A stretch of DNA of 64,000 nucleotides, from the NCBI GenBank assembly GCA_944389565.1, contig CALXMV010000003.1:35455-99454 (forward strand). The letters run 5' to 3'. This document shows positions 24,655 through 41,123 of this stretch, in pieces. The translations under genes were made by a program, and so were the position numbers. How positions within the stretch are numbered: position 1 is the stretch's first letter; the number at the start of each line of letters is the position of its first letter. Under the pieces are notes generated by a model. It was not told where the DNA came from. It saw nothing but the letters and a program-made list of their open reading frames with translations, and made no database searches. Origin of the DNA: an uncultured Kiritimatiellota bacterium (lineage in GTDB: Bacteria; Verrucomicrobiota; Kiritimatiellia; RFP12; DVOR01).

Positions 24655-25980
24655 TCACCGTTCGCGCACGACGAAACGTAATTTGCCCCTGTCATGCGGA
24701 AGCTCCGCGACTGGCTCAAAAACCACCGGAACCTCGTCATTGAGCTGCCGCGACAGCCGCGCCCGAATCTCGTCCACCCGCCGACGTGCATCCTCCGACT
24801 CCTGCGCCGGGACGTAAGCCACCGTGATGGAAGCATCCCTGTGCTGCGTCACGCGGAAACCACGCACCAAATCCGGATCGTTGTCGAAAAGCGTCGTGAG
24901 GAACTCACCGTTCACCACGAGCCCGGAAGGCAAGACGAACGATTCCGACTCACGCCCCTTGATCGAATCGATGAGCGGCAACGAGCGTCCGCACGCGCAC
25001 GGCTTCCCCAACCAACGCCCTCGGTCGCCGTTCTCGTACCGGATGAGCGGAAAGACGAAATCCTCCAGATTGGTCAGCAACGCCCGGCCATATTCCCCCA
25101 CGGGCACAGGCCGATTGTCCCCATCCACGAACTCGATGGCCACATGCTCCACATTCACGTGCAACCCATCCTCCTCCGGGCACTGCTGCGCGACCCAACG
25201 AATCTCGCACGACCCGTACTGGTCGCAGACCGGCGCACGGAATGCCCGCTTCAGCAGGGCCCGTTGCACCGGTGAGAGCGGTGCCGACGTCACCCACACG
25301 CACCGCGGCGCCCACACTTCGAGACCACGATCCAAAACGAACTGCGCCAACTGCGTGACCGCCCCCACATACCCCTGCAACAAGGCCGGCCTCGCCTGAT
25401 CGTAACGCGCCAGAAACGCCCCCATCGAGCGCTCATCCATGAAACTCGCGTCCAGCTTCAAATGACGCGTCGGCCACCACATCGCCGCGTTCTTCAGGCG
25501 AGCCAAACGCGATGCCACCGGCACACGCCACACATACGCATGATCGTCCCACGGACGGATCCCGAACCAGGACTGCAACCGCCAACTGTAAATCGCCTCC
25601 GGGACACGCCCGTCATATCCCGTCTTCGTCGGGGTCCCCGTCGAGCCTCCCGTCGTCGAGACCCGCCGGAACCTTCTCAATGCCGGGTTCGTCATCTCCT
25701 CGAAATGCTCCCGGATCTCCGCCTTCGTCACGATCGGCAATTTCTCGAACCACCCCTCCTGCCCCATATCCCCAAGCCCAAACCCCGCCTCCCCGTAAAA
25801 CTTCTTGTAGAACGGCACCTGCGTCACCGCCGCCGTGACAAGCCGGCGCTTCGCGGCCTCCTGTTCGCGCAACAACGCCTCCGGCGGCCGCCGCTCATTG
25901 CCCACCAAGACGCCAAAACGCTTCCACGCCCCAGGCATCGCCAAGACGCACTTCGCACGAAACAACATCGACCGTGACAT
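24655..25980 (-). CDS. PaaK/CapK-like AMP-dependent ligase family protein (copy 2)
   Basis: 441 aa. Belongs to the phenylacetate-CoA ligase/CapK adenylate-forming group: STTGGSTGTPTKTGYD is the P-loop, YGSCEIRWVAQQC the A5-type motif, and GEYGRALLTNLEDFVFPLIRYENGDRG with a CACGRSLPLID Cys pair the A7/A8 region. Such proteins recur in capsule and O-antigen clusters, where they may activate carboxylic acids for glycan decoration; substrate unknown. Last large gene of the eight-gene minus-strand operon and paralogous to 27181-28536. Confidence 0.75.
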   Translation of the reverse strand: MSRSMLFRAKCVLAMPGAWKRFGVLVGNERRPPEALLREQEAAKRRLVTAAVTQVPFYKKFYGEAGFGLGDMGQEGWFEKLPIVTKAEIREHFEEMTNPALRRFRRVSTTGGSTGTPTKTGYDGRVPEAIYSWRLQSWFGIRPWDDHAYVWRVPVASRLARLKNAAMWWPTRHLKLDASFMDERSMGAFLARYDQARPALLQGYVGAVTQLAQFVLDRGLEVWAPRCVWVTSAPLSPVQRALLKRAFRAPVCDQYGSCEIRWVAQQCPEEDGLHVNVEHVAIEFVDGDNRPVPVGEYGRALLTNLEDFVFPLIRYENGDRGRWLGKPCACGRSLPLIDSIKGRESESFVLPSGLVVNGEFLTTLFDNDPDLVRGFRVTQHRDASITVAYVPAQESEDARRRVDEIRARLSRQLNDEVPVVFEPVAELPHDRGKLRFVVRER

Positions 25981-25986
25981 AATCCG

Positions 25987-27171
25987 TTACCCTCTCGGGG
26001 AGAAAACCCCTGACGTGCTCCCACCCCGCAACACTTTTTTGGTCATCTTGCGCAGGACAATCACAATCGCCCTGCACCAATCACCGAGCGTGAACCCCAT
26101 CCGTCCCCGATATGGCCATGCTTGCAATGCGTATTCATTCCGCTGAATCAGACCACGCAAAAGCTCCGCGAGATACTCCCCACGATGCGATTTCACGTAA
26201 TCGACATCGAACGTCGCGGCGAACCGTCCCAATGCCTCATCCCCACCGACCGCCAACAGCTCAAGAACCGTCCGCATACACTTCGGGCAATCCCACGTGC
26301 CGTTGCGCGTCCCTTCCGCATGACCATTCCAACACACGTCCAAATGCCGCTGCGCCAAAGGGAAATCCACCAGCGCCCGGACCTTGTCAAGCCGTGTCCC
26401 CATCCCATCGGCGATAACCTTCAGGCCATGCACGGAGCAGACCTGCGTCAACAACAAATCATAGTGCGCCACGTCAATCGTCTGAACCGGCGACAAAAAC
26501 ATCTCATTCACCGAATAGCCTGTCGCGAGATAATACCGAGCGAAGAGACCACGCAGACAATACACGGCGAACAGATTGGCGAGCGTCGAATGATTTTCGA
26601 AGACAAGCCCAGGGGCGGAGGCCCCGTCATAATTCGTATCCCCAACAATCAACGCGACCGAGGCCTCTTGCGCCACCTCCCGCGCATGCTCCACCAACTC
26701 ATCGAACAAGGCACGCTTGTCCTTCGCGGCCGTCCCACCATGGCAATTGTTGATGACCACGTGCGTCACCTCGTGCCGATGCATGTACATCGTGTACATC
26801 GAGTCAACCCCACACGTGATGCTACAACCTACCCCCCCCCCGCACCCATCCGATGCGATTCGTTCCGCGGAGATACGGAGCGGCTCCATCGAGGGGTTTG
26901 CCGCGCACATCGTGGGCGAGAAAACCTCCGTCAGATTCTGGATCAGATCCTCCGAACACGGCGCCTCGCTCACGACCTCATGTCGGCCGATGATGACCTC
27001 CTTCAGCAACCCGATTACCCACGGGTCACCGTAATCCGCGCAAAGATATTGCCCAAACCGCTCCTCGACCTCATACCACAGCGGATAGACCTTCCCGTCC
27101 ACGTCAATGTCCGCGGACACCCGTGCCTTCCCCTCACGATGGGAAATCGTCGGCTTACGAATCGTGATCAT
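25987..27171 (-). CDS. PP-loop ATP-pyrophosphatase-like protein with Cys pair
   Basis: 394 aa. GVGCSITCGVDSMYTMYM carries a modified PP-loop (consensus SGGVDS; here TCGVDS), as in the QueC/asparagine-synthase-like AANH superfamily. VALIVGDTNYDG and GYSVNEMFLSPVQ fit the same fold. A late DVCWNG...WDCPKCMRTV segment resembles the zinc-binding cysteines of QueC relatives. The first PP-loop Ser/Gly pair is altered, so ATP pyrophosphatase activity is uncertain. It lies between two PaaK-like ligases, suggesting a joint role in modifying a surface-glycan component. No specific function is known to me. Confidence 0.55.
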   Translation of the reverse strand: MITIRKPTISHREGKARVSADIDVDGKVYPLWYEVEERFGQYLCADYGDPWVIGLLKEVIIGRHEVVSEAPCSEDLIQNLTEVFSPTMCAANPSMEPLRISAERIASDGCGGGVGCSITCGVDSMYTMYMHRHEVTHVVINNCHGGTAAKDKRALFDELVEHAREVAQEASVALIVGDTNYDGASAPGLVFENHSTLANLFAVYCLRGLFARYYLATGYSVNEMFLSPVQTIDVAHYDLLLTQVCSVHGLKVIADGMGTRLDKVRALVDFPLAQRHLDVCWNGHAEGTRNGTWDCPKCMRTVLELLAVGGDEALGRFAATFDVDYVKSHRGEYLAELLRGLIQRNEYALQAWPYRGRMGFTLGDWCRAIVIVLRKMTKKVLRGGSTSGVFSPRG

Positions 27172-27180
27172 AATACGCTC

Positions 27181-28536
27181 TCAATCCGCGATAACATCAC
27201 TAATGATATACTTGATCTTACCTCGATTATGCGGGATAAAATCCTTGTACTCCACAGTAAGTGGCAACGATCCAAGCTGACGTTGCAAATTGGCTGCAAC
27301 CGTTGCAATGGCTTTCTCCGCATCCGGGTAAGCGTGGTTCATAACAACAGATAATGTCACCGATTTGTCCTGATGTTGATGAATCTGGAAATTGTGGATG
27401 GCATTCAAGCAATCATCGAATGCCGTCGCCCAACATTCGCCAGCGATTTTACCATGTTCCAAATAAATGAAATCAAACGACCGTCCATGCACGGCATCCA
27501 TCAACGGAAAGGGACGCCCACACGCACAACGTCCAGGCAACAACCGTCCTCGATCTCCGAGTCTATAGCGAATGATCGGGAAAACACGATCCATGCAATC
27601 CGTCACCAAAATATCCCCCACCTCGCCAACCGGCAAGGGAGTTCCAAACTCATCAACGAACTCCAAATGCCGATAGTCACTGTGGATATGCAGGGCCGGG
27701 CTACTTATTTCTGCCAAATGTCGGCATTGATTTGCCATCGGATGCGCCTCCGTCGCCACATAGTTGTCAAAAACCAAACACCCAAAAGCACGCACGATAT
27801 CCGCACGAACCGTGCTCGACAACGGGGCCGCGGTCGTAAAAACAGCATCCGGCGCTGGCAATTTAATCCCCTGTTGCAAACAATAAACCGCCAATTGATG
27901 GATACCACCAACATAGGAGGAAATCCGACGCGGTTTATAATGGCGCCATTGTCTTATGAAACGCTCGATCTTTTCCTCTGACATATCCCCTGCATCCAAC
28001 ATAATGTTAGTGGCAGGGAAATTCGCCAAGAAATGTCGAAACCGCGTCTTCCATGTGGCATGATGCGTGCGCATGATGGTCGCGGAATTCCCACCTACCG
28101 GGACTCCCGTCCATGTCCCCGCCCGCCAATTCATGACGACAGAACTGAACCCATCATCCTTCAACACCTTTGATGGCTCACCCGTGGATCCTCCCGTAGT
28201 ATATAGTTTGTACGTGGACTGCGGATGAGCGACTTTAATCGTTTCAAAATTATACCGTAACGCCTCGCGGGTCAACATCGGGACCTTCGCCCAATCTTCT
28301 TCCGTCTTGACATCGCCAGGCTCCAACCCCGCGGCTTTGTAGAGAGCATGATAATACGGGGACTCCTCATATGCGAACTTCAACAAATCCAACCGTAGCC
28401 GAAAGTTGAATTCTGCGAGAGCCTCGGGGGAGAGCCGTTCGTTAGCCATCGACTGCCGAAACTGTTTCCACCATTGCGGCTTGGCCAAGCGACACCGTAT
28501 CTCACGCCATTTCTCAGCAAATTTGTCTGTTTTCAT
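27181..28536 (-). CDS. PaaK/CapK-like AMP-dependent ligase family protein (copy 1)
   Basis: 451 aa, paralogue of 24655-25980 over its whole length. LYTTGGSTGEPSKVLKDDG is the P-loop, FDNYVATEAHPMANQC the A5-type motif, and GEVGDILVTDCMDRVFPIIRYRLGDRG followed by CACGRPFPLMD the C-terminal motifs. Codon use is clearly more AT-rich than in housekeeping genes of the window, suggesting lateral acquisition. Twelve nt after the CapA-like gene. Confidence 0.75.
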   Translation of the reverse strand: MKTDKFAEKWREIRCRLAKPQWWKQFRQSMANERLSPEALAEFNFRLRLDLLKFAYEESPYYHALYKAAGLEPGDVKTEEDWAKVPMLTREALRYNFETIKVAHPQSTYKLYTTGGSTGEPSKVLKDDGFSSVVMNWRAGTWTGVPVGGNSATIMRTHHATWKTRFRHFLANFPATNIMLDAGDMSEEKIERFIRQWRHYKPRRISSYVGGIHQLAVYCLQQGIKLPAPDAVFTTAAPLSSTVRADIVRAFGCLVFDNYVATEAHPMANQCRHLAEISSPALHIHSDYRHLEFVDEFGTPLPVGEVGDILVTDCMDRVFPIIRYRLGDRGRLLPGRCACGRPFPLMDAVHGRSFDFIYLEHGKIAGECWATAFDDCLNAIHNFQIHQHQDKSVTLSVVMNHAYPDAEKAIATVAANLQRQLGSLPLTVEYKDFIPHNRGKIKYIISDVIAD

Positions 28537-28547
28537 AATTCATCCTC

Positions 28548-29750
28548 TCAATGAATTGGCATCGTTCTCAGAAGCAAACACGCGAGATCTTTCGCTTTGC
28601 CCGTCATGAATGAACGGCGCACACCAAGCCGTACCCCCATCGCTTCCGCAAGCAGGTCACGATGACTTTCGCATTGCACGTAATTGTACTGCACTAAGGG
28701 ATAATTCGATTTTTCCGTTCCACGAAAGAACGCCCAGAGCGTGCGCATCGTATGATAAAGTCGCTTAAGCCAATCCCGCAAAGACGGACGATGGCCGTCC
28801 ACCGGATAAAAGCCAAGGTTATGCTCATACAATGAATGGTATAAATCAATAGCGACAGTCTGCCACGCGCCTCGATAACATGCCTCGTCGTCCAAAACAT
28901 CCTGCAACGCGGCAAGATATGCGTCCGCGACCTCAGAGCGTTCAATCTTGTCAATCCGAACTCCGCCCCCCTCTTCCACAATTCGAACAGGCACGACCTC
29001 GCTGAGCAAACTGCCGTCCGATGCGAAAGAGAGATGAACGGTCAAAGACCAAAGCGTATTGGCGGACTTTCCCCATCTCGCGGGATCTACAAGGAAATTC
29101 CCCAACCCATAATAAATCCGCCCATGCTTATAAGTTTCCCATCCCTGCGGAACATGTGCGTGATGCCCATGAACGACATCCGCCCCCGAATCAATCAAGG
29201 CTCGATACCACGCCCGCGCTTCCGGCGTTGGGATGGGGGACATCTCCACCGCGGCATGCACCGAAACGATTACGGCATCCACACGCTTTCTCAGCTCACG
29301 AATGGCGTCAAACATCCATGCCCCCAAGGGGGCAATACCTGGCACGCCATCATCTGCCATCCCAAATTGGTGTTCGGCACACGCAAGAATTCCGATGCAA
29401 CGCCCGGCCTCTTCCACGATGATGGGGGCACACGCACGTTTGGTCTCATCCCCCGCCCCAACGACAGGGATGCCACGTGCGCCGCATCGCACCAAAGTCT
29501 CCTTCAACCCCTCCACGCCAAAATCCATCATGTGATTATTGGCCAAACAGAAAATCCAACGGGGGCCCTCCGCCACAAAACCATTCCACACGCGTGGGCC
29601 GGCTTTGCGTGGTGGCTCAGGGCAAGACCACTTGGCACGCTCCCCGATCCAAGGCCCCTCCAAATTACCCAACACCCACTCTCCGCCATTGAGCCAGGCG
29701 GGCAGAATCACATGATTTGTGAAACCGACATGGTCTCCCACCAAAAACAT
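28548..29750 (-). CDS. CapA/PgsA-family protein (poly-gamma-glutamate capsule-type metallophosphatase fold)
   Basis: 400 aa. The PGA_cap signatures are LVGDHVGF near the start, NLEGPW, LANNHMMDFGVEGLKETL, GIPVVGAG, VIVSVHAAVE, SGADVVHGHHAHVPQGWE and YYGLGNFLVDP. CapA proteins are calcineurin-like and are needed for capsule polymer export or tethering; the biochemical role is not settled. The ATG at 29750 with GGAGGGG upstream is preferred to the GTG one codon earlier. It overlaps the previous stop (TGATG). There is no N-terminal signal, unlike many CapA proteins. Confidence 0.8.
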   Translation of the reverse strand: MFLVGDHVGFTNHVILPAWLNGGEWVLGNLEGPWIGERAKWSCPEPPRKAGPRVWNGFVAEGPRWIFCLANNHMMDFGVEGLKETLVRCGARGIPVVGAGDETKRACAPIIVEEAGRCIGILACAEHQFGMADDGVPGIAPLGAWMFDAIRELRKRVDAVIVSVHAAVEMSPIPTPEARAWYRALIDSGADVVHGHHAHVPQGWETYKHGRIYYGLGNFLVDPARWGKSANTLWSLTVHLSFASDGSLLSEVVPVRIVEEGGGVRIDKIERSEVADAYLAALQDVLDDEACYRGAWQTVAIDLYHSLYEHNLGFYPVDGHRPSLRDWLKRLYHTMRTLWAFFRGTEKSNYPLVQYNYVQCESHRDLLAEAMGVRLGVRRSFMTGKAKDLACLLLRTMPIH

Positions 29751-30787
29751 CACACCCCTCCCAGACGTTTAGACAAATCCAGAACCCGCTCCGCAAAAAC
29801 CGCCCGACCGAATTTCGACGCACAAGCCACGGAAGCACGCTGGGCCTGGTCAAAGCGTAGGCTGTCCCATCCCATCAATGTCCGCATGGCATTCGCAATC
29901 GAACCGACACGCATAGGATTGAAGGATAAACCATTCGCCTTTGTCAGGAAATCCGGCGAAGCCCCAATCCGGTCACTCAAAAGCAAGGCACATCCAGAGA
30001 GCGCAGCCTCATGCACCACGACCCCCCAATGCTCCTCACGGCTAGCCAAGACAAAAGCCTTCGCGGCCTGATATTTTTCGGACAGCTCGACCGGTTGCAG
30101 GAAATCATTCACCACGATTCTTGGATGACACGGGATCCGATTCCGCAAAGGGCCTCTGCCACAAAACTCCAATGTCCACGTCGGATACTCATCGGCCACG
30201 CGAAGAAAGGCCTCTGCAACTGCCAACACATTTTTGCGCTCGTTCAATTGCCCTACGCATAAAATAACATTCCTGCGCTCCCCCATTGGCTTTCGACAGC
30301 CAAATGTCGTGTCATCCCCTGAGTAAAACCCCTTCACGATGCGTTCTTTCGGCACGCCAAAGAAACGCAACAGACGCGTCCCACTTGCCCCTGGCACAAA
30401 AAACGCGTCAAACATTCCACGTTGCATCAATCGAAAACGCGCTGCCCGTGCCACATTCCTCCATGTCAACTCCCAATTGTTGTCCACGCAACACACCACA
30501 GGGCGCCCTGCCTTCCGGGCCTCCCTGCAAAACCTATTGAAAATTGGCTCATTCCAACCCGACGTGAAAACAACTCCATATTTCGTCCCACATAAATCCT
30601 CCAACGTACATGTCTCTGAGGGCTTAACCCAGACAATCCGCCCGCCGAACATATTCTCAATCCCCTCATAGGGGAATGAAGACCTGATTGCAACAATCGT
30701 CACGGCCGCATATCGCTTCCGTAACGCCTCCAACGCCTGTACCCCATATGCCGTCAGACCATTCCAGAAAAAAAGAATCTCGCGCAT
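29750..30787 (-). CDS. GT4-type glycosyltransferase (GT-B fold)
   Basis: 345 aa. The C-terminal half has the GT4 donor-site pattern: VILCVGQLNERKNVLAVAEAF, LEFCGRGPLRNRI, VNDFLQPVELSEKYQAAKAF and SREEHWGVVVHEAALSGCALLLSD, with the EX7E-like pair in EEHWGVVVHE. The N-terminus (MREILFFWNGLTAYGVQ) is the acceptor domain. The ATG at 30787 with GAGGTG upstream is preferred to the TTG at 30799. Sugar donor not predictable. Confidence 0.8.
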   Translation of the reverse strand: MREILFFWNGLTAYGVQALEALRKRYAAVTIVAIRSSFPYEGIENMFGGRIVWVKPSETCTLEDLCGTKYGVVFTSGWNEPIFNRFCREARKAGRPVVCCVDNNWELTWRNVARAARFRLMQRGMFDAFFVPGASGTRLLRFFGVPKERIVKGFYSGDDTTFGCRKPMGERRNVILCVGQLNERKNVLAVAEAFLRVADEYPTWTLEFCGRGPLRNRIPCHPRIVVNDFLQPVELSEKYQAAKAFVLASREEHWGVVVHEAALSGCALLLSDRIGASPDFLTKANGLSFNPMRVGSIANAMRTLMGWDSLRFDQAQRASVACASKFGRAVFAERVLDLSKRLGGV

Positions 30788-30822
30788 TTCACACCTCAAT
30801 CAATTACTCCCCTACTCCCCAT

Positions 30823-31584
30823 TCATCCACGCCTCTTGGAAGTTCTAAAATGCCTGACAAAGCACGCCGCCACAACGAAAAGCGAATCCAATGCCTTCCC
30901 TGTCCCACGACATACCACATAGATAATCCGTTTCAGAAAAGTCCTATGTTCCTGAGGAACTTCAATTCCCGTAGTTCCAATGTCTGAGAGGAATTGAGTA
31001 CAATTTTGCGTGCAACACCGCGGGTGTGCGTGATAAAGTGCCAAAATGTGCATACTGACCCATCGCCCCCAAAAATCACACGGAACTTTCAAAGGCAGAT
31101 TTGCTTTTAACAACGCAATCGCCGCCGTACGGGTCAAAACATATCCTTCTGTCCTGATATCCGATTGCGTCGGATAGATTCCCTGTGCGCGTTCCACGTT
31201 CTTCCCAGTATGATTGGAGAGCAAGACCACCTGCGGCTCTCCGGGGCGCACCCATGCCTCCACACGCCGTAGCTGATCGGGGAACGCGTCTTCCAAGAGC
31301 ACGTCGTCCTCCAAGACGCATGCCATCGGAATCCGCTCCTCCACCATGCGTCGATAAATGGCGTAGTGCGACAACGCGCATCCGATTTCGCCATCACGGA
31401 TGGTGCGCCCAACCGCGCACCACCACCGAAAACGATTCACGGCGCGTCGCTTTTCCTCCTCGGGCAAGGCCTTGCCGTAGACTGCGGGGAAGCGCTCGTA
31501 TTCCACGCCGAGGCGTTTCAGCTGGGCATCCGCGGCCGCAAGCCGATCCGGGTTTTTGTCGAGATTGATCAGGAAGACTTTCAT
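30823..31584 (-). CDS. Glycosyltransferase family 25 (LPS biosynthesis type)
   Basis: 253 aa. MKVFLINLDKNPDRLAAAD at the start, GEIGCALSHYAIYRRM and MACVLEDDVLLED are the classic GT25 motifs, as in LgtB/LpsA beta-galactosyltransferases of lipooligosaccharide. The ATG overlaps the GT8-like stop by 4 nt. The C-terminal 60 residues are basic with hydrophobic patches, suiting membrane association. Confidence 0.85.
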   Translation of the reverse strand: MKVFLINLDKNPDRLAAADAQLKRLGVEYERFPAVYGKALPEEEKRRAVNRFRWWCAVGRTIRDGEIGCALSHYAIYRRMVEERIPMACVLEDDVLLEDAFPDQLRRVEAWVRPGEPQVVLLSNHTGKNVERAQGIYPTQSDIRTEGYVLTRTAAIALLKANLPLKVPCDFWGRWVSMHILALYHAHPRCCTQNCTQFLSDIGTTGIEVPQEHRTFLKRIIYVVCRGTGKALDSLFVVAACFVRHFRTSKRRG

Positions 31585-32606
31585 GAGCGACCTATCCCCA
31601 AAACTTCACGTATGGCAAGATCCGAGCAATCATGGGCGAGCTGGAGCTGACGCCAATGCGGCGTGATGCCTTTATAACCGCGCATCTGGCAGATTAGGCA
31701 AAGCACCCGCCACAGCAAGGGGACATGAAGGAATGCGTAGAGCAGACGTTTCCCCCAGAGCACGCGCCATCCGAGGCAACGATGATAGGATTCTCCCCGC
31801 TTGCGCCAGACATAGGTGTCCGCGAAGGCGTGCCACAGACGGAATCGGCCGGAGGCGACCTCCCCGTATTTGCGCACCCATGGATTGCCGCACACGTAGT
31901 GCACCACGGGGCGTTCGGCAAGTTTTTCGTCGGTCAGGAAAATCTGCAGGCGGTCGAACTTCTGTGGGGCAAAGGCCTTGTGTCCATGGAAGACGACATT
32001 CATGGCCGTCTGGTCCGGGAGCGCGACGTCCGGATAATCCTTGAAGAACTGCTGAATCCGCTCGGGGATTTTGTCTTCACGGCATTTCTTGAAATTGAAA
32101 AGCATGACCCCGGAATTGAAATACTCCGAGTCCGGGATTGTCACCCCGCACCGCCGCGCGGCCCACTCGCACTCCCCCCGCCGGCAACGTTCGGATTCCT
32201 CTTGGACGACCACCGCGTAGGCATTTGCGTCACGATAGGAGAAATGCTCCTCGACGGAGGCCAGATAGAGCACGTCGCAATCCAAATAGAGGCACCAATC
32301 CACATCCTTCAGGATATACGGGAAGAAGCACCGCACACTGGCCATGCGCGACCCGGCCCAGTAAGGCAGCCCGGCGAGGATGGTCTCATCGCACACGTGC
32401 TGCTCCACGACCCCATTCGGGTGAAGTCGTGACAGGACCTCCCTCGCCTCCTCCATCGTCTCTTGGCGGACATCCTCCGTGAACACATGAAAATGCAAAG
32501 GCGTCTCCCGCCGTGCGAAAGCCGCCACCCCGGCCAACGCCACGAGAGCCCCTGGCATATACCTCTCATTCGCCGCGACCGCTACGTGAAAAGTCTCTTG
32601 CGCCAT
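31581..32606 (-). CDS. Glycosyltransferase family 8
   Basis: 341 aa. FHVAVAANERYMPGALVALAG, LKDVDWCLYLDCDVLYLASVEE (DXD motif DCD) and FNSGVMLFNFKKCRED are GT8 signatures of LPS alpha-galactosyl/glucosyltransferases. The start overlaps the end of the upstream GT2 gene by 41 nt, which is long but supported by both proteins showing family sequence right at these ends. Confidence 0.85.
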   Translation of the reverse strand: MAQETFHVAVAANERYMPGALVALAGVAAFARRETPLHFHVFTEDVRQETMEEAREVLSRLHPNGVVEQHVCDETILAGLPYWAGSRMASVRCFFPYILKDVDWCLYLDCDVLYLASVEEHFSYRDANAYAVVVQEESERCRRGECEWAARRCGVTIPDSEYFNSGVMLFNFKKCREDKIPERIQQFFKDYPDVALPDQTAMNVVFHGHKAFAPQKFDRLQIFLTDEKLAERPVVHYVCGNPWVRKYGEVASGRFRLWHAFADTYVWRKRGESYHRCLGWRVLWGKRLLYAFLHVPLLWRVLCLICQMRGYKGITPHWRQLQLAHDCSDLAIREVLGIGRS

Positions 32607-33591
32607 TATTTTTGCTCCTCGACCACGCCTTCAGGCGGACACACCGCCCAACGAACCATTGGCTGACAGTATACCAAGGCGTCGCCCAAAAAAGCAAGGC
32701 CGTTGTGCGGAATGCGATGGTCGTGCCATGTGTCCCCCAAGCCATGCGCAAAAGCGCCCACCTCCACCGGCGATACCACGCCACCCGCGTCTGCCGGTCA
32801 GACAAACGCGCCATCCACCCCATCTGGCCCAGTGCCAAAACCTTCTCGCAATTGCGCAAGACGTCCCGTGCGACCGGTCGTGCCCCAGAAACGTACAGGC
32901 CAAGAATCGCGCTCCAAGCACCCCATTCGCTTTGCAACCGCGCCACCGAGACAGACGATGTCGTGGCGGAGCCTTCCCGTCGCCGATACCAATAAAGCGG
33001 TATCTCCGCCAAAACAACCCGCCGTGCACGACAAAACCACATCGTCATGAACAGCACATCCTCGGAATGCGTGAACGGGCGAAACCGGATTGCTCCCCCT
33101 CGCGGCATCCGATAGGCGAATTCCCAAAAGCTGTGCCGAGCCAACGCCAATGAGATCCCATCCTCGGCATTGATGACACGCACGCCCCCAAGACGAGGAA
33201 TCGTCTTCCCCACGTCCTCCCATGTCTCTCCCATCCGAAAGGCGATCATGTCCGCGTCCGGGCACCGAGCGTCCAACTCCCGGATCGTCGCCAACCACGT
33301 AGGCGCAACCGCATCGTCGCCATCGAGAAAAAGCAACCACCGTCCCCGAACACGCCCCAACGCCCGATTTCTGGCGGCCGCCACCCCCGCATTTCGTTGA
33401 TGGATGACATGGAAGCGCCCATCCCCCCGCACCGCCTCGTCCAAATAACCTCCCCCGCCATCCGCGCTCCCATCATCCACGCACCAACACTCCCACAGGT
33501 CATAAGTTTGCCGTGCCACGGACCGCAACGCCTCATGGATGTACGCCCGAACCATGTACACGGGGACGACAATCGAAAAATCAGGGGGCAT
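32566..33591 (-). CDS. Glycosyltransferase family 2, first gene of the leftward polysaccharide operon
   Basis: 341 aa. GT-A fold: FSIVVPVYMVRAYIHEALRSV, CVDDGSADGGGG, NAGVAAARNRALGRVRG and the DXD-type LFLDGDDAVAP. The ATG at 33591 starts right at the family N-terminus with GGAG 5 nt upstream. In-frame codons further upstream read through the invertible site and are not coding. The only visible promoter for this eight-gene operon would be the inverted state of the switch at 33614-33712. In the orientation present here no promoter faces it. Confidence 0.85.
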   Translation of the reverse strand: MPPDFSIVVPVYMVRAYIHEALRSVARQTYDLWECWCVDDGSADGGGGYLDEAVRGDGRFHVIHQRNAGVAAARNRALGRVRGRWLLFLDGDDAVAPTWLATIRELDARCPDADMIAFRMGETWEDVGKTIPRLGGVRVINAEDGISLALARHSFWEFAYRMPRGGAIRFRPFTHSEDVLFMTMWFCRARRVVLAEIPLYWYRRREGSATTSSVSVARLQSEWGAWSAILGLYVSGARPVARDVLRNCEKVLALGQMGWMARLSDRQTRVAWYRRWRWALLRMAWGTHGTTIAFRTTALLFWATPWYTVSQWFVGRCVRLKAWSRSKNNGARDFSRSGRGE

Positions 33592-33613
33592 AGCTTCTCC
33601 GAGACTCCTTTGG

Positions 33614-33712
33614 GCGTTTAGACGGACGTTTAAACGCACTACCCCGGGAATCGGATTTGCTATACTTTGTGCGTTTGTTTTCACCCGTGCGTTTAAACGT
33701 CCGTTTAAACGC
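33614..33712. promoter_or_regulatory. Invertible promoter 1 (facing right)
   Basis: Two 24-bp palindromic sites, 33614-33637 and 33689-33712, lie in inverted orientation with 51 bp between them. Each site has 11-bp arms GCGTTTARACG around a central dinucleotide: GA on the left, TC on the right (GA when read inverted). One arm base differs between the copies. Inside is GGATTTGCTATACTTTGTGC with TATACT at 33661-33666 reading toward the GT2 gene at 33743. Inversion would point the promoter at the eight-gene operon starting at 33591. Confidence 0.85.
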
Positions 33713-33742
33713 CGCACCTGCGTCACAGAAAGGGCGTCAGCC

Positions 33743-34897
33743 ATGTCGAGCCAATCTTTGCGGATTCCTCCCGCGGAGGAACTGATTTCCACGATTCTTC
33801 AGGTACGGGAGTGCCTGCGCACGGCTGACCCGGAAGACGTTGGGGCCCCTCGTGACTTTCCCATCCCCGATCCGCCCAAGGCGCCACCGCTCGTCAGCGT
33901 CGAGGTTTTGGTCTATAACCAAGCCCGTACCCTGCGCCATTGCGTCGAGAGCATTGTGGCACAAAAGACCGACTTCCCATTTGAGATCATCATCGGCAAC
34001 GATTGCAGCACCGACGATTCATTGGACGTGGCCCGCGCCCTACAACGTGAGCATCCTGACAAAATCCGCATTCTTTCCACGCGCCGGAACGTCGGGCTCA
34101 ACCGTAACGCTCGGAATGTCCGCCGCGCCATGCGCGGGACGTTCGCGGCATTTTGCGAGGGGGACGACTGGTGGCTCACCGAGACACGCCTGCAAGGACA
34201 GGTCGACCTCCTTCGCGCGCACCCGGAAGTCTCGCTCGTGCATGGATACACGCGGTTCTACGACGAAGCCTCGGGGGCGCTCACGGAGAACGCCTTGCGA
34301 TTCCGCCTGCCACCGAACCGCTTCGCGAGAATCCTTGATGAGACCTATCGTGTCGAGACCGCCGGGGTTGTCTGCCGTGTGAGGGATCTCTTGCGGATCT
34401 ACGACGAGTGCCCGCATCTCATCGACGCGCGTTTCCGCATGCTCGACACGCAACTCTTCTGCCTGCTTGCCTCATGGGGTGATGTCGTCTGCCTTCCCCA
34501 CCCCGTTTCGGTCCGCCGCTATTCGGGCCATTCGCTAAGCCGCAACGGGGATCTCGCCAAGAGTCTGACCTACCACGACAACGCCTTCGCCATGATGCTC
34601 ACGCTCTGCGACCATTTCCGCCAAGGCCCAAGGGCACGGGCACGTATCGCCAACCACTATCTGTCGAGCGCCTACCAAGCGCTATGCAAGGTCTTCACAA
34701 GGCGCGAGGCCTCTCACGTCCTCCGTACGCTCTATCCAGAGTTCAAATTGAGAATTGGGTTATTGCGGCTTTTTCCGGAACCGCGTAACCGCCTGCTCCG
34801 AAAGCTCTTCTATCATTTTCTCTTTCCGGTCGCCAAATACAGGCATAGTTTCAAGAGTGAGCCCGTGCCCACCACACGCGTAGCTTTTGGCGGTTGA
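33743..34897 (+). CDS. Glycosyltransferase family 2, right-hand target of switch 1
   Basis: 384 aa. PPLVSVEVLVYNQARTLRHC, IIIGNDCSTDDSLDVAR, FAAFCEGDDWWLTE (DXD-like GDD) and LVHGYTRFYDEA fit a GT2 transferase of the type found in exopolysaccharide clusters. The ATG at 33743 starts MSSQSLRIPPAEEL, with AGAAAGGG upstream. In-frame codons further upstream cross the inverted-repeat site. The gene is on in the orientation seen here. Its 3' end overlaps the convergent gene 34851-35882 by 47 bp. Confidence 0.82.
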   Translation: MSSQSLRIPPAEELISTILQVRECLRTADPEDVGAPRDFPIPDPPKAPPLVSVEVLVYNQARTLRHCVESIVAQKTDFPFEIIIGNDCSTDDSLDVARALQREHPDKIRILSTRRNVGLNRNARNVRRAMRGTFAAFCEGDDWWLTETRLQGQVDLLRAHPEVSLVHGYTRFYDEASGALTENALRFRLPPNRFARILDETYRVETAGVVCRVRDLLRIYDECPHLIDARFRMLDTQLFCLLASWGDVVCLPHPVSVRRYSGHSLSRNGDLAKSLTYHDNAFAMMLTLCDHFRQGPRARARIANHYLSSAYQALCKVFTRREASHVLRTLYPEFKLRIGLLRLFPEPRNRLLRKLFYHFLFPVAKYRHSFKSEPVPTTRVAFGG

Positions 34898-35882
34898 TTC
34901 GCCGTTTGACCCAATAAGGCATCACACACAGAATCCAGGCCACCCACGGCCGCCGGAAACGCGTCAGCACCCGTAACGCCATGCGTTGCCACGGGGAGAA
35001 CGTTGCGTCGATATGCGCAATCGCGTCCAATGCCACCAACCAGCGTCTCCATAAGGCCTCACGACGGACCTGGCCCATAATCTCCGATGCGATGCGCTCC
35101 ACCACGCCACCATACAGCATTCGCACGAACGATGCGTCCCGCGCCAGCGGCGTGCCCATAATCGCGACGAACGCGGCCTCGCCAAACGCGATTCCGTCCG
35201 CGACACGCTTCTCCGTAACGGCACTTCGCATCGCCGAGCCTTGACGCAAGCGTAACCCATACGGCTTCCACGCCTGAATCGCCGCCACGCGCATCCGGAC
35301 GATGGCCCGTATCAAAAACAGCAAATCCTCCCCGTATCTCAGCGTGACGTCAAAACGCAACCCATCAAGCAACCCACGGCGGTAAGCCACCTCACAGAAT
35401 GCTCCATACATGGCACGATGATCCGCCGGAGCGCCATCCGCGCCAAGTGTCACAAAGCGTTGCCCAAGCGGGACCGGACAAGACGGGAAACACACACCAT
35501 GCTCATCCCCCACGGTCGCCCGAAAAAGAACGGCATCCAAATCCCGCGGGGCGGTCTCGATCGTCCGCGCGACCTCCCGCAACAGATGCGGATGAAAGAG
35601 GTCATCCCCGTCCAAGAAAAGCACCCACTCGCCACGTATCCGCGCCAACGCCCGATTCCGTGCCGCCGAGACGCCCCGATTGGGTTGGTGAACAGCCCGA
35701 AAACGCGCATCCGCACGCACGGCAGAATCCACGATTTCGTCCAACCCATCCCCGCTCCCATCATCGACGCAAACGCACTCCCAACGGAATTCCGATTGCG
35801 CCAAAACCGAGGCCAAACACTCTTGAAGATACGCGCGCACACGGTAACAGGGGACAACGATCGAAAACATTCGCCGAGACAC
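34851..35882 (-). CDS. Glycosyltransferase family 2, left-hand target of switch 2
   Basis: 343 aa. FSIVVPCYRVRAYLQECLASV, CVDDGSGDGLDEIV, NRGVSAARNRALARIRGEWV and LFLDGDDLFHPHLL define a GT-A GT2 enzyme closely related to the one at 32566-33591. The start is GTG at 35882, with GGAGGG 7 nt upstream. An ATG lies four codons downstream (35870). As read here the switch-2 promoter points at this gene, so it is predicted on. The C-terminal 46 bp run antisense to the convergent GT2 gene. Confidence 0.82.
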   Translation of the reverse strand: MSRRMFSIVVPCYRVRAYLQECLASVLAQSEFRWECVCVDDGSGDGLDEIVDSAVRADARFRAVHQPNRGVSAARNRALARIRGEWVLFLDGDDLFHPHLLREVARTIETAPRDLDAVLFRATVGDEHGVCFPSCPVPLGQRFVTLGADGAPADHRAMYGAFCEVAYRRGLLDGLRFDVTLRYGEDLLFLIRAIVRMRVAAIQAWKPYGLRLRQGSAMRSAVTEKRVADGIAFGEAAFVAIMGTPLARDASFVRMLYGGVVERIASEIMGQVRREALWRRWLVALDAIAHIDATFSPWQRMALRVLTRFRRPWVAWILCVMPYWVKRRINRQKLRVWWARAHS

Positions 35883-35896
35883 GAATCAACCCTCCG

Positions 35897-36005
35897 ATGG
35901 TGCGTTTAAACGACCGTCTAAACGCATCAGTGAAACGATGACGAGAAGTATAGCAAAACCGTGTGACGGGGGTAGTGCGTTTAGACGGTCGTTTAAACGC
36001 ACCAT
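35897..36005. promoter_or_regulatory. Invertible promoter 2 (facing left)
   Basis: Core sites 35902-35925 and 35977-36000 are perfect inverted copies, and the identity extends to 30 bp (35897-35926 versus 35976-36005). The gap between cores is 51 bp. Central dinucleotide AC on the left, GT on the right, identical when read inverted. The minus strand of the gap has GGTTTTGCTATACTTC with TATACT at 35952-35947, directed at the GTG of the gene at 35882. Inversion would direct it at 36032. Confidence 0.88.
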
Positions 36006-36031
36006 TTGTTTGTATCGCTGTCTGCAAGCCA

Positions 36032-37024
36032 ATGATTTACGATTGTTTCACCTTCTTCAACGAACTCGACTTGCTCGAAATCCGCCTGAACATTCTCAAG
36101 GACGTCGTGGATCGCTTCATCGTCGTGGAGGCGACACAGACTCATCAAGGGGCGCCCAAGCCCCTCTTGCTTCAGGAAAACATCGCCCGTTTCGCACCGT
36201 TCAAAGGCAAACTCATTCACGTCATCGCCGACAATCCACCCTCCTCATCAGGTGCGCCGCGTGACGCGAATGGCAACAACTGGGTGATCGAGAATTGGCA
36301 ACGTGCCAAAATCGACGAAGCATTGCAAAATTGTCAGGACGATGATGTCATCATCGTCTCGGATCTCGATGAGATTCCACGACCGGAGGCCATCCTGCGC
36401 AACCACCCCCGTCCCGGCATCACGACCCTCTGCGTGGACAACTACAATTTCTTCCTCGACTTCCGAAGTTCCGAGCCGCCCTTCCCCGTCATCAAAATGG
36501 TGCGCTACGATTATTATCGGGACGTACTCCCGCGATTGCCCTTCCCTGAGAACCAAAAATTCCGTTTTTTGCCTTGTTACTGGGGAACCTCAAACCCAAA
36601 CAAACTCCGTGCCATGGACGGGAATCGCCTCATCCCCCACGGAGGCTGGCACTTTTCCTATCTGGGTGGTCTTGAGCGCGTCCTGAAAAAACGCCAATCC
36701 ATCGTCGAGCAACAGTACAATGACGCGGAGACGACCACGGCGCAATGGGTGTCACGGCGGATCCGACAAGGTCGCGACATCTATCGCCGCGGGTATCTTT
36801 TCTATCCCACGGCACGCTCCCTACCGAACTTCTTGCGCCGTAACCGGAAACGCTACGACCATCTCTTCTGGCACCCCTCCGCCCCTTGGGAGAGATCGCT
36901 CCTCACGATGCGTTTCATGCTGTTACGTCTCTGCAATCACGCTGTCCGATTTGGGCGACGCACCAAACTTCTCACCCCGTTTGAACGACTCATCCCCATC
37001 ATAAAGCGACTGATTACCCGATGA
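36032..37024 (+). CDS. GT17-like glycosyltransferase (beta-1,4-N-acetylglucosaminyltransferase family), right-hand target of switch 2
   Basis: 330 aa. IYDCFTFFNELDLLEIRLNIL, VVDRFIVVEATQTHQG, DDDVIIVSDLDEIPRPEA (acidic DLDE site) and GGWHFSYLGG are the GT17 pattern, related to MGAT3-like enzymes and common in bacterial polysaccharide clusters. The ATG at 36032 starts at the family N-terminus. No good Shine-Dalgarno is visible. In the orientation present here no promoter faces it, so it is predicted off. Ends 4 bp from the convergent gene at 37029. Confidence 0.82.
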   Translation: MIYDCFTFFNELDLLEIRLNILKDVVDRFIVVEATQTHQGAPKPLLLQENIARFAPFKGKLIHVIADNPPSSSGAPRDANGNNWVIENWQRAKIDEALQNCQDDDVIIVSDLDEIPRPEAILRNHPRPGITTLCVDNYNFFLDFRSSEPPFPVIKMVRYDYYRDVLPRLPFPENQKFRFLPCYWGTSNPNKLRAMDGNRLIPHGGWHFSYLGGLERVLKKRQSIVEQQYNDAETTTAQWVSRRIRQGRDIYRRGYLFYPTARSLPNFLRRNRKRYDHLFWHPSAPWERSLLTMRFMLLRLCNHAVRFGRRTKLLTPFERLIPIIKRLITR

Positions 37025-37028
37025 AACC

Positions 37029-38213
37029 TCAATCCCTCAAAGAAAGGTTCTCGCGGAGCCAAGAGAGGGATGAGGCGCGAGCGGCGGAGAGGGCGGGAAG
37101 ATCGTAGGTGATTGGGGCGGCAAGGGATGCAAGGGCGGAGAGGAGGTCGGGGGCGATGAGGGGACCTGAAGTATAACGGGCGGCGAATTCCTCGATGCGA
37201 GCGAACATCCCTTGGCGAGCGGTTGTGTCGGGACGGAGGATACGGACGTTTTTACCAAAGATGGAAGCAAACATCAACGCGTGGAAGGAGTCGGACACAA
37301 TCCAGTCGGCTTGGGCGAAATCTTGGAGGAACTCGCGTGGGCCTGCATCATTTCGGACGCGAACGGAAGAGAACCCAGTACGCAGACGGAACCAGAGGTG
37401 CTTCATCAAAGGACGAGGAGCCAAGCGGACGGCGTAGGCACCGTCACGTAGGACGTGGATGTCGCAATCGTTCCGCTTGGCGAATGCTTCGAGCAAGGGC
37501 CAGACGCGTTTGAGATCGACGGAGAGGAAATAACAGACGAGACGTCTGCGCCTCGGGGGAGAAGGGGGTGTCCGTCCAAATGCGAGCATACGCCAAGCAT
37601 CAGCGGGGACAAGTTGGGTGGGATCGAGCACATGGGTGGCTTTGGCGCCGACGGAGGCCGCGAGGGTTACCCCCTCGGCTTCGCGGACGGAAATCGCGGC
37701 GAATCGGCGCAGGCCCTCGCGGAAACGCACGACCCAGTCGAGTGGGATAGCGCGTATCCCGAAACTGGCAGCGTAAGCGATGGCATGTAACCCTTGCGGC
37801 GCACCTTCGAGGAGATAGACGCTGGGGTCACCCCAGTCGCCACAGTGCCATACTTGATCGCTCCCGATGACAAGACCGTCCAAGCCTAGGTCTTTCCCCG
37901 CCACGTCCGGCCATTCATGAAAGTGGTAAGGCGTGAGACGCATGGTCTCACGCACGAAGCGCATGGTGCGCCAATGGCGAACGGTTCGTGCCCATTGGCC
38001 GCACCCGAAGCACGCGTGGATCAGAAACGAGCCCCACGCTTTGAGGGACATTCGCGCAAAAGGCCCGCGTAGCGTGACGTTACGCGAATCAATCCAACGG
38101 TCAACCACAGAGACATCGTGCCCCAACATACGCAAGGCCTGTTGCCCAGCCCAAGCCTGTAACACGCCTCCATAATTCAACTGGGAATGGGTGGTCAGTA
38201 CACCAACTCTCAT
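37029..38213 (-). CDS. Polysaccharide pyruvyl transferase family protein, left-hand target of switch 3
   Basis: 394 aa. MRVGVLTTHSQLNYGGVLQAW at the start, LDGLVIGSDQVWHCGDWGD, AISVREAEG, THVLDPTQLVPADAW and ADWIVSDSFHALMFASIFGKNV are hallmarks of the CsaB/WcaK-type pyruvyl transferases that put pyruvate ketals on capsule sugars. The ATG at 38213 with GGAGGG 7 nt upstream is preferred. Predicted off as read here, because the switch-3 promoter faces away. Confidence 0.85.
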   Translation of the reverse strand: MRVGVLTTHSQLNYGGVLQAWAGQQALRMLGHDVSVVDRWIDSRNVTLRGPFARMSLKAWGSFLIHACFGCGQWARTVRHWRTMRFVRETMRLTPYHFHEWPDVAGKDLGLDGLVIGSDQVWHCGDWGDPSVYLLEGAPQGLHAIAYAASFGIRAIPLDWVVRFREGLRRFAAISVREAEGVTLAASVGAKATHVLDPTQLVPADAWRMLAFGRTPPSPPRRRRLVCYFLSVDLKRVWPLLEAFAKRNDCDIHVLRDGAYAVRLAPRPLMKHLWFRLRTGFSSVRVRNDAGPREFLQDFAQADWIVSDSFHALMFASIFGKNVRILRPDTTARQGMFARIEEFAARYTSGPLIAPDLLSALASLAAPITYDLPALSAARASSLSWLRENLSLRD

Positions 38214-38283
38214 GCCGCGACCCTCCATTGTACGCACGGTGAAAACGTCAGAATGGCAATACGCATCGCAAAAACCAAGTGCG

Positions 38284-38382
38284 GCGTTTAAACGTACGTC
38301 TAAACGCCCCACCCTTCGCGGACGGATTTGCTATACTTTACGCACTGTTTTCACCCGTGCGTTTAGACGTACGTTTAAACGC
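38284..38382. promoter_or_regulatory. Invertible promoter 3 (facing right)
   Basis: Core sites 38284-38307 and 38359-38382 are perfect inverted copies with 51 bp between them. The central dinucleotide is TA in both, which is self-complementary. The gap contains GGATTTGCTATACTTTACGC with TATACT at 38332-38337, facing the flippase gene at 38397. GTTTTCACCCGTGCGTTTA on its right is shared with switch 1. Inversion would direct transcription to 38213. Confidence 0.88.
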
Positions 38383-38396
38383 CGGGGAAAGGGAGG

Positions 38397-39959
38397 ATGA
38401 TGACGGAGAATCGGCGGATATTCTGGAATGTGGTGGCGACTTACGGGCGGTCGTTGTTCACGATGGGGTGCGGGCTTTTCACGAGCCGTTGGGTGTTGAT
38501 GACATTGGGGGAGGTGGATTATGGGCTCTATGGGGTGGTGGGTGGGCTGACGGTGTGCATCGGCTTCCTGAACGGGTTGCTCTCGAACGCGGTGGGGCGG
38601 TTTTACGCATTCTCGGTGGGGCAGGCGCGGGTGGCGGGGACGCAGGGCGAAGGCTTGGAGGTGTGCCGGCAATGGTTCAACAGCGCGTTGGCGATCCATT
38701 GCGTGGTGCCATTGGCCTTGATGGCGGTGGGGTACCCCATCGGGGAGCACGCGGTGAGGGCGTGGCTGACAATCCCGCCGGAACGCGTGGAGGCATGCGT
38801 GTGGGTCTTCCGGATTGTGTGCGTGACAAGTCTGGTGGGGATGATGAGCGTGCCGTTCCGCGCGATGTACGAGGCAAAGCAATATATCGCGGAGTTGACG
38901 ATTTACAGTTTCGTGACGGCGACGTTGAATGTGTGCGTGCTTTATTACATGGTGTCGCACCCGGGGGATTGGCTGACACGGTATGCGCTGTGGACGGCGG
39001 TGTTGGCCATCGCGCCGATGGTGATCATCGCGGTGAGGGCGGTGTTCATCTTCCCGGAATTGCGGTTTCGACCGGCGTATCTGTGGGATTGGCGACGGAC
39101 ACGGGCGCTCGTGTATTTCGCGGGCGCGGAGTTCTTCGGATGCCTGGGGGTGCTCTTGCGGGGACAGGGGGTGATGATCGTGGTGAACAAGTATTTCGGC
39201 CCGGCGACGAACGCGGCGATGACGGTGGCGACGTCGGTGAGCAACCACTGCAACACGCTGAACGCGTGCCTGCAGGGGGCGTTTTTGCCGGCGATCACGA
39301 ACGCGTGCGGCGCGCGCGATTATGGGCGGATGCTCGCGCTCACCTACCGCACGTGCACGATCGGCTCGCTCTTGGTGCTGCTTTTCGCGTTGCCGTTGGC
39401 GTTGGAAATCGACGAGGTGCTGCGGTTATGGCTGAAGCATCCGCCGGAATATGCCGCAGGGCTGAGTCTCCTCATGTTGGCGACGCTGGTGGTCGATCGC
39501 TTGGGGCGCGGGAGTATGCTCGCGCTGAATGCGAACGGCAAGGTGATGGCGTACCAGTTGGTTTCGGGGACACTTTTGATCCTGACCTTCCCGGCAGCGT
39601 GGCTCTTCGTGGCGCTTGGGTTCGGGGTGTATTCAATCGGGTGGGCGTTCGTGATTTTCATCGCGGCGCACATCCTGAGCGCGATCTGGTTCGCGCGGAA
39701 ACTTGTGCGCTTCTCGTTTCGCCACTGGGTCAGGAGCACGGTGTTGCCGATCGCCATGCTGACGGCGATTTGCGGCGCGGCGGGGACGTTGCCGAGACTG
39801 TGGATGGAGCCGTCTCTGTGGCGCGTGGCGATGACGACGCTGTGTTGCGAGGCGATTTTATTGCCGCTGGCGTGGGGCTTGGTGCTCACTCCCGAGGAAC
39901 GCGCGTTCGTGCGTGAGAAACTCCGCCAAGCATTGGGACGCTTGGCGAAAAAGGAATGA
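38397..39959 (+). CDS. Wzx-like polysaccharide flippase (MOP superfamily), right-hand target of switch 3
   Basis: 520 aa, about 12-14 hydrophobic segments (for example VDYGLYGVVGGLTVCIGFLN, LVSGTLLILTFPAAWLFVAL) with the organisation of O-antigen/PST transporters. The amphipathic N-terminus NVVATYGRSLFTMGCGLFTSRWV and the middle AMTVATSVSNHCNTLNACLQGAF are typical. It should flip lipid-linked repeat units to the periplasm. Two adjacent in-frame ATGs (38397, 38400) follow GGGAGG; the second has the better spacing. Predicted on in this orientation. It ends 3 bp before the convergent esterase gene. Confidence 0.85.
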   Translation: MMTENRRIFWNVVATYGRSLFTMGCGLFTSRWVLMTLGEVDYGLYGVVGGLTVCIGFLNGLLSNAVGRFYAFSVGQARVAGTQGEGLEVCRQWFNSALAIHCVVPLALMAVGYPIGEHAVRAWLTIPPERVEACVWVFRIVCVTSLVGMMSVPFRAMYEAKQYIAELTIYSFVTATLNVCVLYYMVSHPGDWLTRYALWTAVLAIAPMVIIAVRAVFIFPELRFRPAYLWDWRRTRALVYFAGAEFFGCLGVLLRGQGVMIVVNKYFGPATNAAMTVATSVSNHCNTLNACLQGAFLPAITNACGARDYGRMLALTYRTCTIGSLLVLLFALPLALEIDEVLRLWLKHPPEYAAGLSLLMLATLVVDRLGRGSMLALNANGKVMAYQLVSGTLLILTFPAAWLFVALGFGVYSIGWAFVIFIAAHILSAIWFARKLVRFSFRHWVRSTVLPIAMLTAICGAAGTLPRLWMEPSLWRVAMTTLCCEAILLPLAWGLVLTPEERAFVREKLRQALGRLAKKE

Positions 39960-39962
39960 ATG

Positions 39963-41000
39963 TCAGCGGATGTTGGCGTGGGCGAGGCGGGCACGGAGCC
40001 AGCGCACCGAGACGTCGAGGGCGACTCGCTGGGATGCGGGGAGCTGGGGGAAGGAGAGGAAACCATGGAGCGCGCCGGTGACGAGGAAACGGGCGTCCTC
40101 GGCGCGGCCAAGGGTGGCGAGACGTTCGTGGAGGAGGCGGGATTGGCCGGCGAGGAGGTCGCATTCGGCGGCGACGGTGAGGATGGGGGGGAGGGTGCGC
40201 AGGGAGGCATCGCCGGCCAGAAGGGGTGAGGCGATGGGGTTGGAGCGGGCGGTGGCGGCATCCACGTAAACGCGGGCGAAGGCCTCGGTGAGGGAAGCGG
40301 TGAGGAGGATGACATCCTGGTAGGCACGGTATTCGGGGGTGCCGTCCGGATAAAGGGCGAGGACGGGGTAATAGAGGATGAGGCCGTCGGCGACGCCCGG
40401 GGCGACAAGGGCGGCGACAATCGCGAGGTTGCCGCCGGCGGAGTCGCCGGAGATGAAGAGGGGACGATCGGCGAAACGGGCACGGAGTGCCTTGACGTGG
40501 TCGCTCACCACGCGGGGGGCGACGGGGAAGGCATTCTCCGGGGCGAGGGGGTAGTCGAGCGACCAGACCTCGACGGCGGCCTTCTCGGCGAGCGCGGCGC
40601 AGAAGGCCTCGTTCGTGCGGGGGCCGCCGACGGCCCATCCGCCGCCATGGAGGTAAACGAGCGTGGCCTTGGGTTTGCCAGCGGGGGCATAGACGGCCCA
40701 AGGTCCCTCCTCGCGGAGGGTGACCTTGCCTTTGTGCGCGGCGTTGAAGGCGGTGGCGTCGCCCTGCGGGCCGGCGACGGCCTCGCGCCAAGCGGTGAGG
40801 GCGGCGGTGTCGCCGGCGCGGGCGGCATGGAGCGCATCCACGTGCGCTTGGTCCGCGGCGCGGCGGGGTTCGTAATAGGCCACGAGGGCCGCGCTCTCGT
40901 CCGAGAAGGGCGCACGCTCAGCGGCGCATCCCGCGCCGAGCATCACCAGGATCGCCAAGGCGCCGATTGCGCCAAACCGTAACACGTTGCCTTTTGCCAT
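39963..41000 (-). CDS. Alpha/beta-hydrolase esterase lipoprotein (HSL/BD-FAE type)
   Basis: 345 aa. MAKGNVLRFGAIGALAILV followed by LGAGC is a lipoprotein signal peptide with the lipobox Cys near residue 25. The hydrolase domain has oxyanion motif HGGGWAVG, nucleophile GDSAGGN, acid Asp in AAECDLLAGQS and His in GALHGFLSF, a full hormone-sensitive-lipase-like set. Likely an esterase acting in the envelope; deacylation of polysaccharide is possible but only suggested by position. A TAAAAT hexamer at 41058-41053 may be its -10. Confidence 0.8.
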   Translation of the reverse strand: MAKGNVLRFGAIGALAILVMLGAGCAAERAPFSDESAALVAYYEPRRAADQAHVDALHAARAGDTAALTAWREAVAGPQGDATAFNAAHKGKVTLREEGPWAVYAPAGKPKATLVYLHGGGWAVGGPRTNEAFCAALAEKAAVEVWSLDYPLAPENAFPVAPRVVSDHVKALRARFADRPLFISGDSAGGNLAIVAALVAPGVADGLILYYPVLALYPDGTPEYRAYQDVILLTASLTEAFARVYVDAATARSNPIASPLLAGDASLRTLPPILTVAAECDLLAGQSRLLHERLATLGRAEDARFLVTGALHGFLSFPQLPASQRVALDVSVRWLRARLAHANIR

Positions 41001-41123
41001 CGCCGAGACTCCTTGGAAACACGCAGACGGCATCTCGCGCCTGCGTGTCTTTATTTTACATCATTTCGACCCGCCGGTGACGAATTATTTTCGCGCCGAC
41101 GCGACCTCGCGGAAGGGGGTGGG

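Follow-up and report, generated by a model that had tools for sequence, protein, structure and literature searches.

The surface-glycan locus and its promoter-like elements

The present study concerns a surface-glycan locus of an uncultured Kiritimatiellota bacterium and three 99-bp elements embedded in it, one in each of its divergent intergenic regions (n=3). The locus lies in a stretch of 64,000 nucleotides (contig CALXMV010000003.1 of assembly GCA_944389565.1, forward-strand positions 35,455 to 99,454), here called the window, and its coordinates are counted from the first letter of that stretch. The genome analysed has 2.26 Mb of assembled sequence in 72 contigs and is 95% complete; contigs described below as its own are those of this genome. 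To the left of the first element (switch 1) is a minus-strand unit of eight genes (24655..33591), taken from its spacing to be a single operon and specifying two CoA-ligase-like proteins (below the NCBIfam cut-offs), a protein without a family, a PGA_cap protein, a group-1 (GT4-like) glycosyltransferase and GT25, GT8 and GT2 proteins, with a plus-strand GT2 gene (33743..34897) to the right of the element. Switch 2 separates another GT2 gene (34851..35870, minus strand) from a gene of the GT17 family (36032..37024, plus strand), and switch 3 lies between a polysaccharide pyruvyltransferase gene (37029..38213, minus strand) and a flippase-like gene (38397..39959, plus strand). Between the switches the genes run tail to tail, overlapping or almost touching. 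An earlier note on this DNA had described the same layout, with divergent units at each switch and convergent ones between, and the layout is borne out here; a flippase-like gene is indeed present, but the label Wzx that the note gave it depends on a MatE match below threshold. The statement that single genes and not whole loci are switched holds for five of the six targets, the sixth being the eight-gene unit. No DNA-binding regulator was found by Pfam among the 14 locus genes scanned, of which three had no family over threshold and two more had weak matches. In two relatives of the flippase, P0032 and P0097 (885 and 904 amino acids), PF04432 and ferredoxin-type domains are present as well, which points to gene fusions. 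At least 120 relatives of the flippase were listed, and the two named ones among them are labelled Kiritimatiellae, of which the source organism is thus a likely member.

All three elements follow one plan, in which two 24-bp arms, the second inverted relative to the first, enclose a spacer of 51 bp, with the arm starts 75 bp apart in every case. Switch 1 has its left arm at 33614..33637 (central dinucleotide, or centre, GA), its spacer at 33638..33688, carrying TTTGCTATACT on the plus strand and facing right towards GT2, and its right arm at 33689..33712. The arms of switch 2 lie at 35902..35925 (centre AC) and 35977..36000, and in its spacer (35926..35976) TTTGCTATACT is on the minus strand, facing left towards the other GT2 gene. 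Switch 3 again reads to the right, towards the flippase-like gene, with TTTGCTATACT on the plus strand of a spacer at 38308..38358 between arms at 38284..38307 (centre TA) and 38359..38382. In each spacer TTTGCTATACT is central, and TATACT starts at 33661 (+), 35952 (-) and 38332 (+), positions that agree, as do the six exact arms, with the three TATACT promoters enclosed by inverted 24-bp sites that had been proposed earlier. Those sites had been called palindromic; the window arms are near-palindromes, but the arms of most relatives (see below) are inverted repeats that are not palindromic. When the 24-mer arm pattern GCGTTTARACGNNCGTYTAAACGC was sought with up to three mismatches, the window gave six matches, all without mismatch, and 100 shuffles of the window gave none even at three mismatches. 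Elsewhere in the genome only three sites matched at this tolerance, all on contig C41 and with one or two mismatches. Between the arms and the ATG codons chosen for the flanking genes are 14 to 70 bp, which leaves little space for additional promoters. Each element has a unit close by to its left and another to its right, an arrangement other than the ON/OFF control of one downstream operon. A promoter-like motif within inverted repeats beside surface-glycan genes is the arrangement of an Mpi-type invertible promoter, the promoter being recognised here by its motif.

In 318 kb of sequence from the genus, the promoter-like motif TTTGCTATA[AC]T is found at 25 places, 17 of these with the start of an open reading frame (ORF) of at least 150 codons within 60 bp; 60 shuffled single 11-mers used as a control averaged 0.05 occurrences, none with such an ORF start. 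Thirteen of the 25 belong to switches or to one-armed remnants of them (one element, in genome G008, is counted twice), and 11 of the other 12 stand just before an ORF on the same strand. In the region 24400-41100 the genus motif TGCTATANT is confined to the three switches, and a sigma-70 scan of the same region gave 7 sites against 6.7 in shuffles. No clear -35 box could be seen by eye in the spacers. We infer that the motif would act as a promoter.

Candidate recombinases

Two serine-recombinase matches and two tyrosine-recombinase matches were found in the genome. Both of the former score above the NCBIfam cut-off of 272 bits for the master DNA invertase Mpi family (NF009949), at 314.7 and 277.5 bits, and both keep the catalytic serine motif. 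One of these genes lies about 3 kb from a further two-armed element on contig C6 and the other is on contig C5; near them, no arm-like pair around TGCTATANT was detected beyond the C6 element, the other inverted repeats there being unlike the arms. Across the genus there are 20 serine-recombinase matches; 15 of these proteins, which come from 13 of the 17 genomes, have a short Mpi-like form, and all 15 match NF009949 (bit scores were set against the cut-off for two). The closest solved relatives are the DNA-invertase chains 4m6f (7.8e-13) and 3uj3 (7.6e-12). Excerpts of PMC8375218 give the Mpi repeat of Bacteroides fragilis as ARACGTTCGTN and that of B. intestinalis as GTTCGTTTAA. Compared by eye with the core ARACGTTCGT, a consensus taken second-hand from that excerpted source, AAACGTACGT (switch 3) and AAACGTCCGT (switch 1) agree at 9 of 10 positions and AAACGACCGT (switch 2) at 8 of 10. 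The earlier note had given the lack of any recombinase in the genome able to act on the sites as one of two conditions against its proposal; so far as sequence can tell, the two Mpi-family genes and the resemblance of the arms to the Mpi repeat speak against such a lack.

Related elements and their matched centres

The same plan, with other arm sequences, recurs upstream of related genes in the genus. Ten two-armed elements were found in 5 of the 17 genomes, representing this species and four others: three in the window, one on the genome's own contig C6 (L138 11010-11108, between hexapeptide-transferase and pyruvyltransferase genes), two each in G001 and G005, and one each in G006 and G008. 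All ten lie between divergent genes, and both start codons were found for eight of them; the left gene of the element at G005:C3 was placed by homology, and the G008 element was read across two contigs. The central dinucleotide is identical in the two arms of all ten pairs (GA, AC, TA, TC, GA, TC, TA, TC, TA and TA), and is equal in 10 of 45 comparisons between elements (a hand count). Sixteen identical bases are present in seven arm pairs, 15 in two and 14 in one, the three window pairs being identical over at least 16. Between-element distinctness of centres within genomes had P=0.10 when 12 values were shuffled (promoter switches and remnants), and P=0.028 for 16 values when the cassette arrays described below were included, these arrays being orthologous and not independent; neither value counts as proof of distinct centres.

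A strict pattern applied across the order recovered seven of the ten elements, which belong to three of the 17 genomes of the genus, and had no match in the 144 other genomes; it misses those of G005 and G008, and other promoter types would also escape it. Leaving the promoter out of the two-arm pattern made it too noisy to enter any count (at least 31 matches in the genome itself against 12 in the control). A paired-site scan led to 39 stretches of public genomes and one viral contig, none of which (0 of 40) showed this architecture; by eye they are repeats, either tandem or nested, or unremarkable sequence. The paired-site pattern brought up nested palindromic repeat families extending over many contigs in Bacteroides nordii (L019 and others) and Parabacteroides sp. 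PH5-46 (L015 and others). One-armed remnants occur in G006 (L140 near 4818 and 15718, that is, G006:C19:26817 and 37717) and still face glycan genes: in one case it is the GT2 gene orthologous to that on the right of switch 1, in the other a hexapeptide-transferase-like gene.

Orientation of the putative promoters

As assembled, the three promoters face GT2 (33743, to the right), GT2 (34851, to the left) and the flippase-like gene (38397, to the right), and in this state the eight-gene unit, the GT17 gene and the pyruvyltransferase gene would lack a recognisable promoter. A relative of the GT17 gene is found in one other genome of the genus, G006 (66%), where it belongs to a syntenic block (GT8 87%, GT2 71%, GT2 59%, GT17 65%, flippase 75%). 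The element between GT2 and GT17 (switch 2) faces GT2 in the window and GT17 in its G006 orthologue. This opposite orientation lends support to the proposal that every switch would choose between left and right. Within the window, the whole of spacer 2 aligns in reverse to spacers 1 and 3, with neither score reached by any of 500 shuffles; with the motif cut out, the reversed alignment holds for spacers 1 and 2 (0/500) and weakly for 2 and 3 (18/500). In G008, contigs C19 (L145, at its end) and C16 (L146, at its start) both end inside the element, with an exact overlap of 77 bp. This break could reflect both orientations being present at assembly, and is only suggestive; both ends read the same way.

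A cassette array of surface-protein genes

The three near-matches to the arm pattern on contig C41 had been considered, together with one in G004, as chance occurrences in coding sequence, and this was ruled out when they proved to head members of a cassette family. On C41 each of the three heads one body of a single family of secreted proteins (L011 4986-7003 and 11377-12031). One body has a start codon and a signal-peptide-like leader that ends at the site. The other two lack a leader and begin abruptly with the site, and two of the three stand back to back across 654 bp. Nine of the 17 genus genomes carry the family, with 26 copies between them, and in seven of these genomes the number of copies with a leader, as judged by eye, is exactly one: one of three in G000, one of four in G001, one of four in G005, one of three in G007, one of four in G008, one of five in G012 and the single copy of G016. 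G009 and G011 have one copy each, without a leader. Arrays elsewhere are located at G001:C12, G005:C2, G007:C38, G008:C6 and G012:C9 (L178-L203). The site, of the form AAACG NN C.., is common to the copies within one genome, and its centre is CC in five genomes; G016, with its one copy, had no site by eye and no serine-recombinase match. After removal of the shared head, the leader body of G000 and a leaderless body of G008 are reciprocal best matches (54%), and for G008/G012 and G001/G005 leader body pairs with leader body. The pattern suggests that bodies may have moved between expressed and silent places at such sites, and it indirectly supports recombination at such sites in the genus. The array is probably a more striking find than the promoter switches. 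The near-match at G004:C72 (L005 1495-1530) is a 36-bp palindrome heading a leaderless relative of the cassette bodies, and a PEP-CTERM-like gene follows at least the three C41 bodies and the G004 body (by eye).

Proposed mechanism and alternative explanations

Taken together, these observations point to three promoter-like sequences, each within inverted arms, that are likely to be inverted by an Mpi-family serine recombinase and so to choose the unit on the left or that on the right, a reading to which we assign a probability of about 0.87. An Mpi-family invertase would bind both arms of one pair and cut at the matched central dinucleotide (GA, AC or TA), the 51-bp promoter would invert, and the transcribed side would thereby be exchanged, left unit for right or the reverse. 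For serine recombinases, differing centres hinder exchange between sites. Since the three pairs differ in their central dinucleotide, little exchange is expected from one pair to another, and the genes lying between them may thus be protected. We infer, on the strength of the sequence, that flipping would take place in the population, that the side faced away from would be silent, that the three switches may be independent and that the glycan could be affected. The eight states suggested earlier would require independent flipping, itself presumed. This genome has five different centres (GA, AC, TA, TC and CC), one for each of its four promoter switches and one for its cassette array, and a more ambitious scheme can be sketched, in which one Mpi-type master invertase would run three adjacent two-way selectors in a single glycan locus, giving up to eight glycan programmes, as well as a fourth selector elsewhere and the cassette array, each with its own centre preventing cross-recombination. 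We offer this scheme tentatively, with more doubt than confidence.

Several observations weigh against inversion as the explanation. Outside the motif, the switch-2 spacers of the window and of G006 are little alike by eye, so replacement instead of inversion is possible for this pair. The switch between hexapeptide-transferase and pyruvyltransferase genes faces the transferase in all four of its two-armed copies, and in three of three cases the element points away from a second pyruvyltransferase family. The arms are imperfect in three of ten pairs (14 or 15 of 16 bases), elements were found by the strict pattern in only 3 of 161 genomes, and seven upstream regions of flippase relatives (of 17 other matches) showed no arm pair around the motif. 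In the assembled sequences, on which the evidence rests, no population with both orientations was seen.

Four other explanations were considered. The arms might be paired operators, on which a dimeric regulator, bound to near-palindromes 75 bp (about seven helical turns) apart, acts on a fixed promoter, perhaps by looping. This suits the near-palindromic arms of the window, their fixed 75-bp spacing and the central promoter, but we consider it unlikely, given that the arms of most relatives are not palindromic, that centres match within pairs and differ between them, neither of which operators need, that Pfam gave no regulator among the 14 locus genes scanned (some without a family), although one could lie elsewhere, and that one orthologous element faces the opposite way. 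Less probable again is that the elements are locked remnants, formerly invertible and now fixed in the assembled orientation: for this speak the single orientation of several orthologous elements (4/4 and 3/3) and the one-armed remnants of G006, and against it the identity of the window arms over at least 16 bases in all three pairs and the fact that both Mpi-family genes, each with its catalytic serine motif, are retained.

A small mobile element resembling a MITE (miniature inverted-repeat transposable element), with terminal inverted repeats and an outward promoter, would account for the repeats, the similar length and the occurrence of several copies. It is very improbable, as the search of the genome yielded only four two-armed copies, each of them set between divergent genes and differing from the others in its arms, and the element persists at the orthologous place in G006. 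Least credible of all is a fixed two-way promoter serving both sides simultaneously, to which the position of the motif at the spacer centre might be credited; TTTGCTATACT is asymmetric, 11 of the 12 non-switch occurrences precede a same-strand ORF, and the matched inverted arms would be left without explanation. Inversion by an Mpi-family recombinase is the reading that we prefer.

Comparison with known invertible systems

If the promoters do flip, one glycan gene or unit would be exchanged for another within a single locus, giving a compact form of combinatorial surface variation, and the matched but differing crossover dinucleotides suggest a way in which several switches could be run side by side with one recombinase. 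No paper naming Kiritimatiellae together with phase variation was found in the literature searched, outside which most subscription papers fall, and among the matches listed there was none on an invertible promoter or inverton that selects between divergent genes. Invertible capsule promoters as such are already known; the present ones differ in their position between opposed units, as predicted selectors, in the presence of three in a row, and in their differing crossover dinucleotides.

The closest likeness is to the Mpi-controlled capsule promoters of B. fragilis, which, in the portions of the sources available, share a promoter within inverted repeats, adjoining glycan genes and a recombinase of the Mpi family, and whose repeat core (ARACGTTCGTN) the present arms resemble by eye. 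Excerpts of PMC3090145 describe ON and OFF forms of Bacteroides capsule promoters in a sequenced population, and those of PMC8375218 also report both orientations. According to the same excerpts, a Bacteroides switch turns a polysaccharide locus ON or OFF, whereas each of the present elements stands between two opposed units, and the promoter segments of B. intestinalis measure 183-186 bp (PMC8375218), compared with spacers of 51 bp here. Within the Verrucomicrobiota, the cps1 inverton of Akkermansia muciniphila was detected in both orientations by reads and PCR and switches a capsule locus ON or OFF, as stated in part of PMC13343947, and a repeat motif common to Akkermansia invertons is given in part of PMC11892184. 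The window elements likewise have flanking inverted repeats, at a surface-glycan locus; the cps1 case, so far as these extracts describe it, is one switch for one capsule locus, whereas here there are three in a row.

A more distant likeness is to the DNA invertases of the Hin/Gin type, which belong to the same recombinase superfamily. In the Hin system a single inversion can swap the genes that are expressed, and in systems of this type the gene for the recombinase is situated within or next to the segment that is inverted. The present elements differ in that the recombinase genes are on other contigs and the segment between the arms is a 51-bp promoter.

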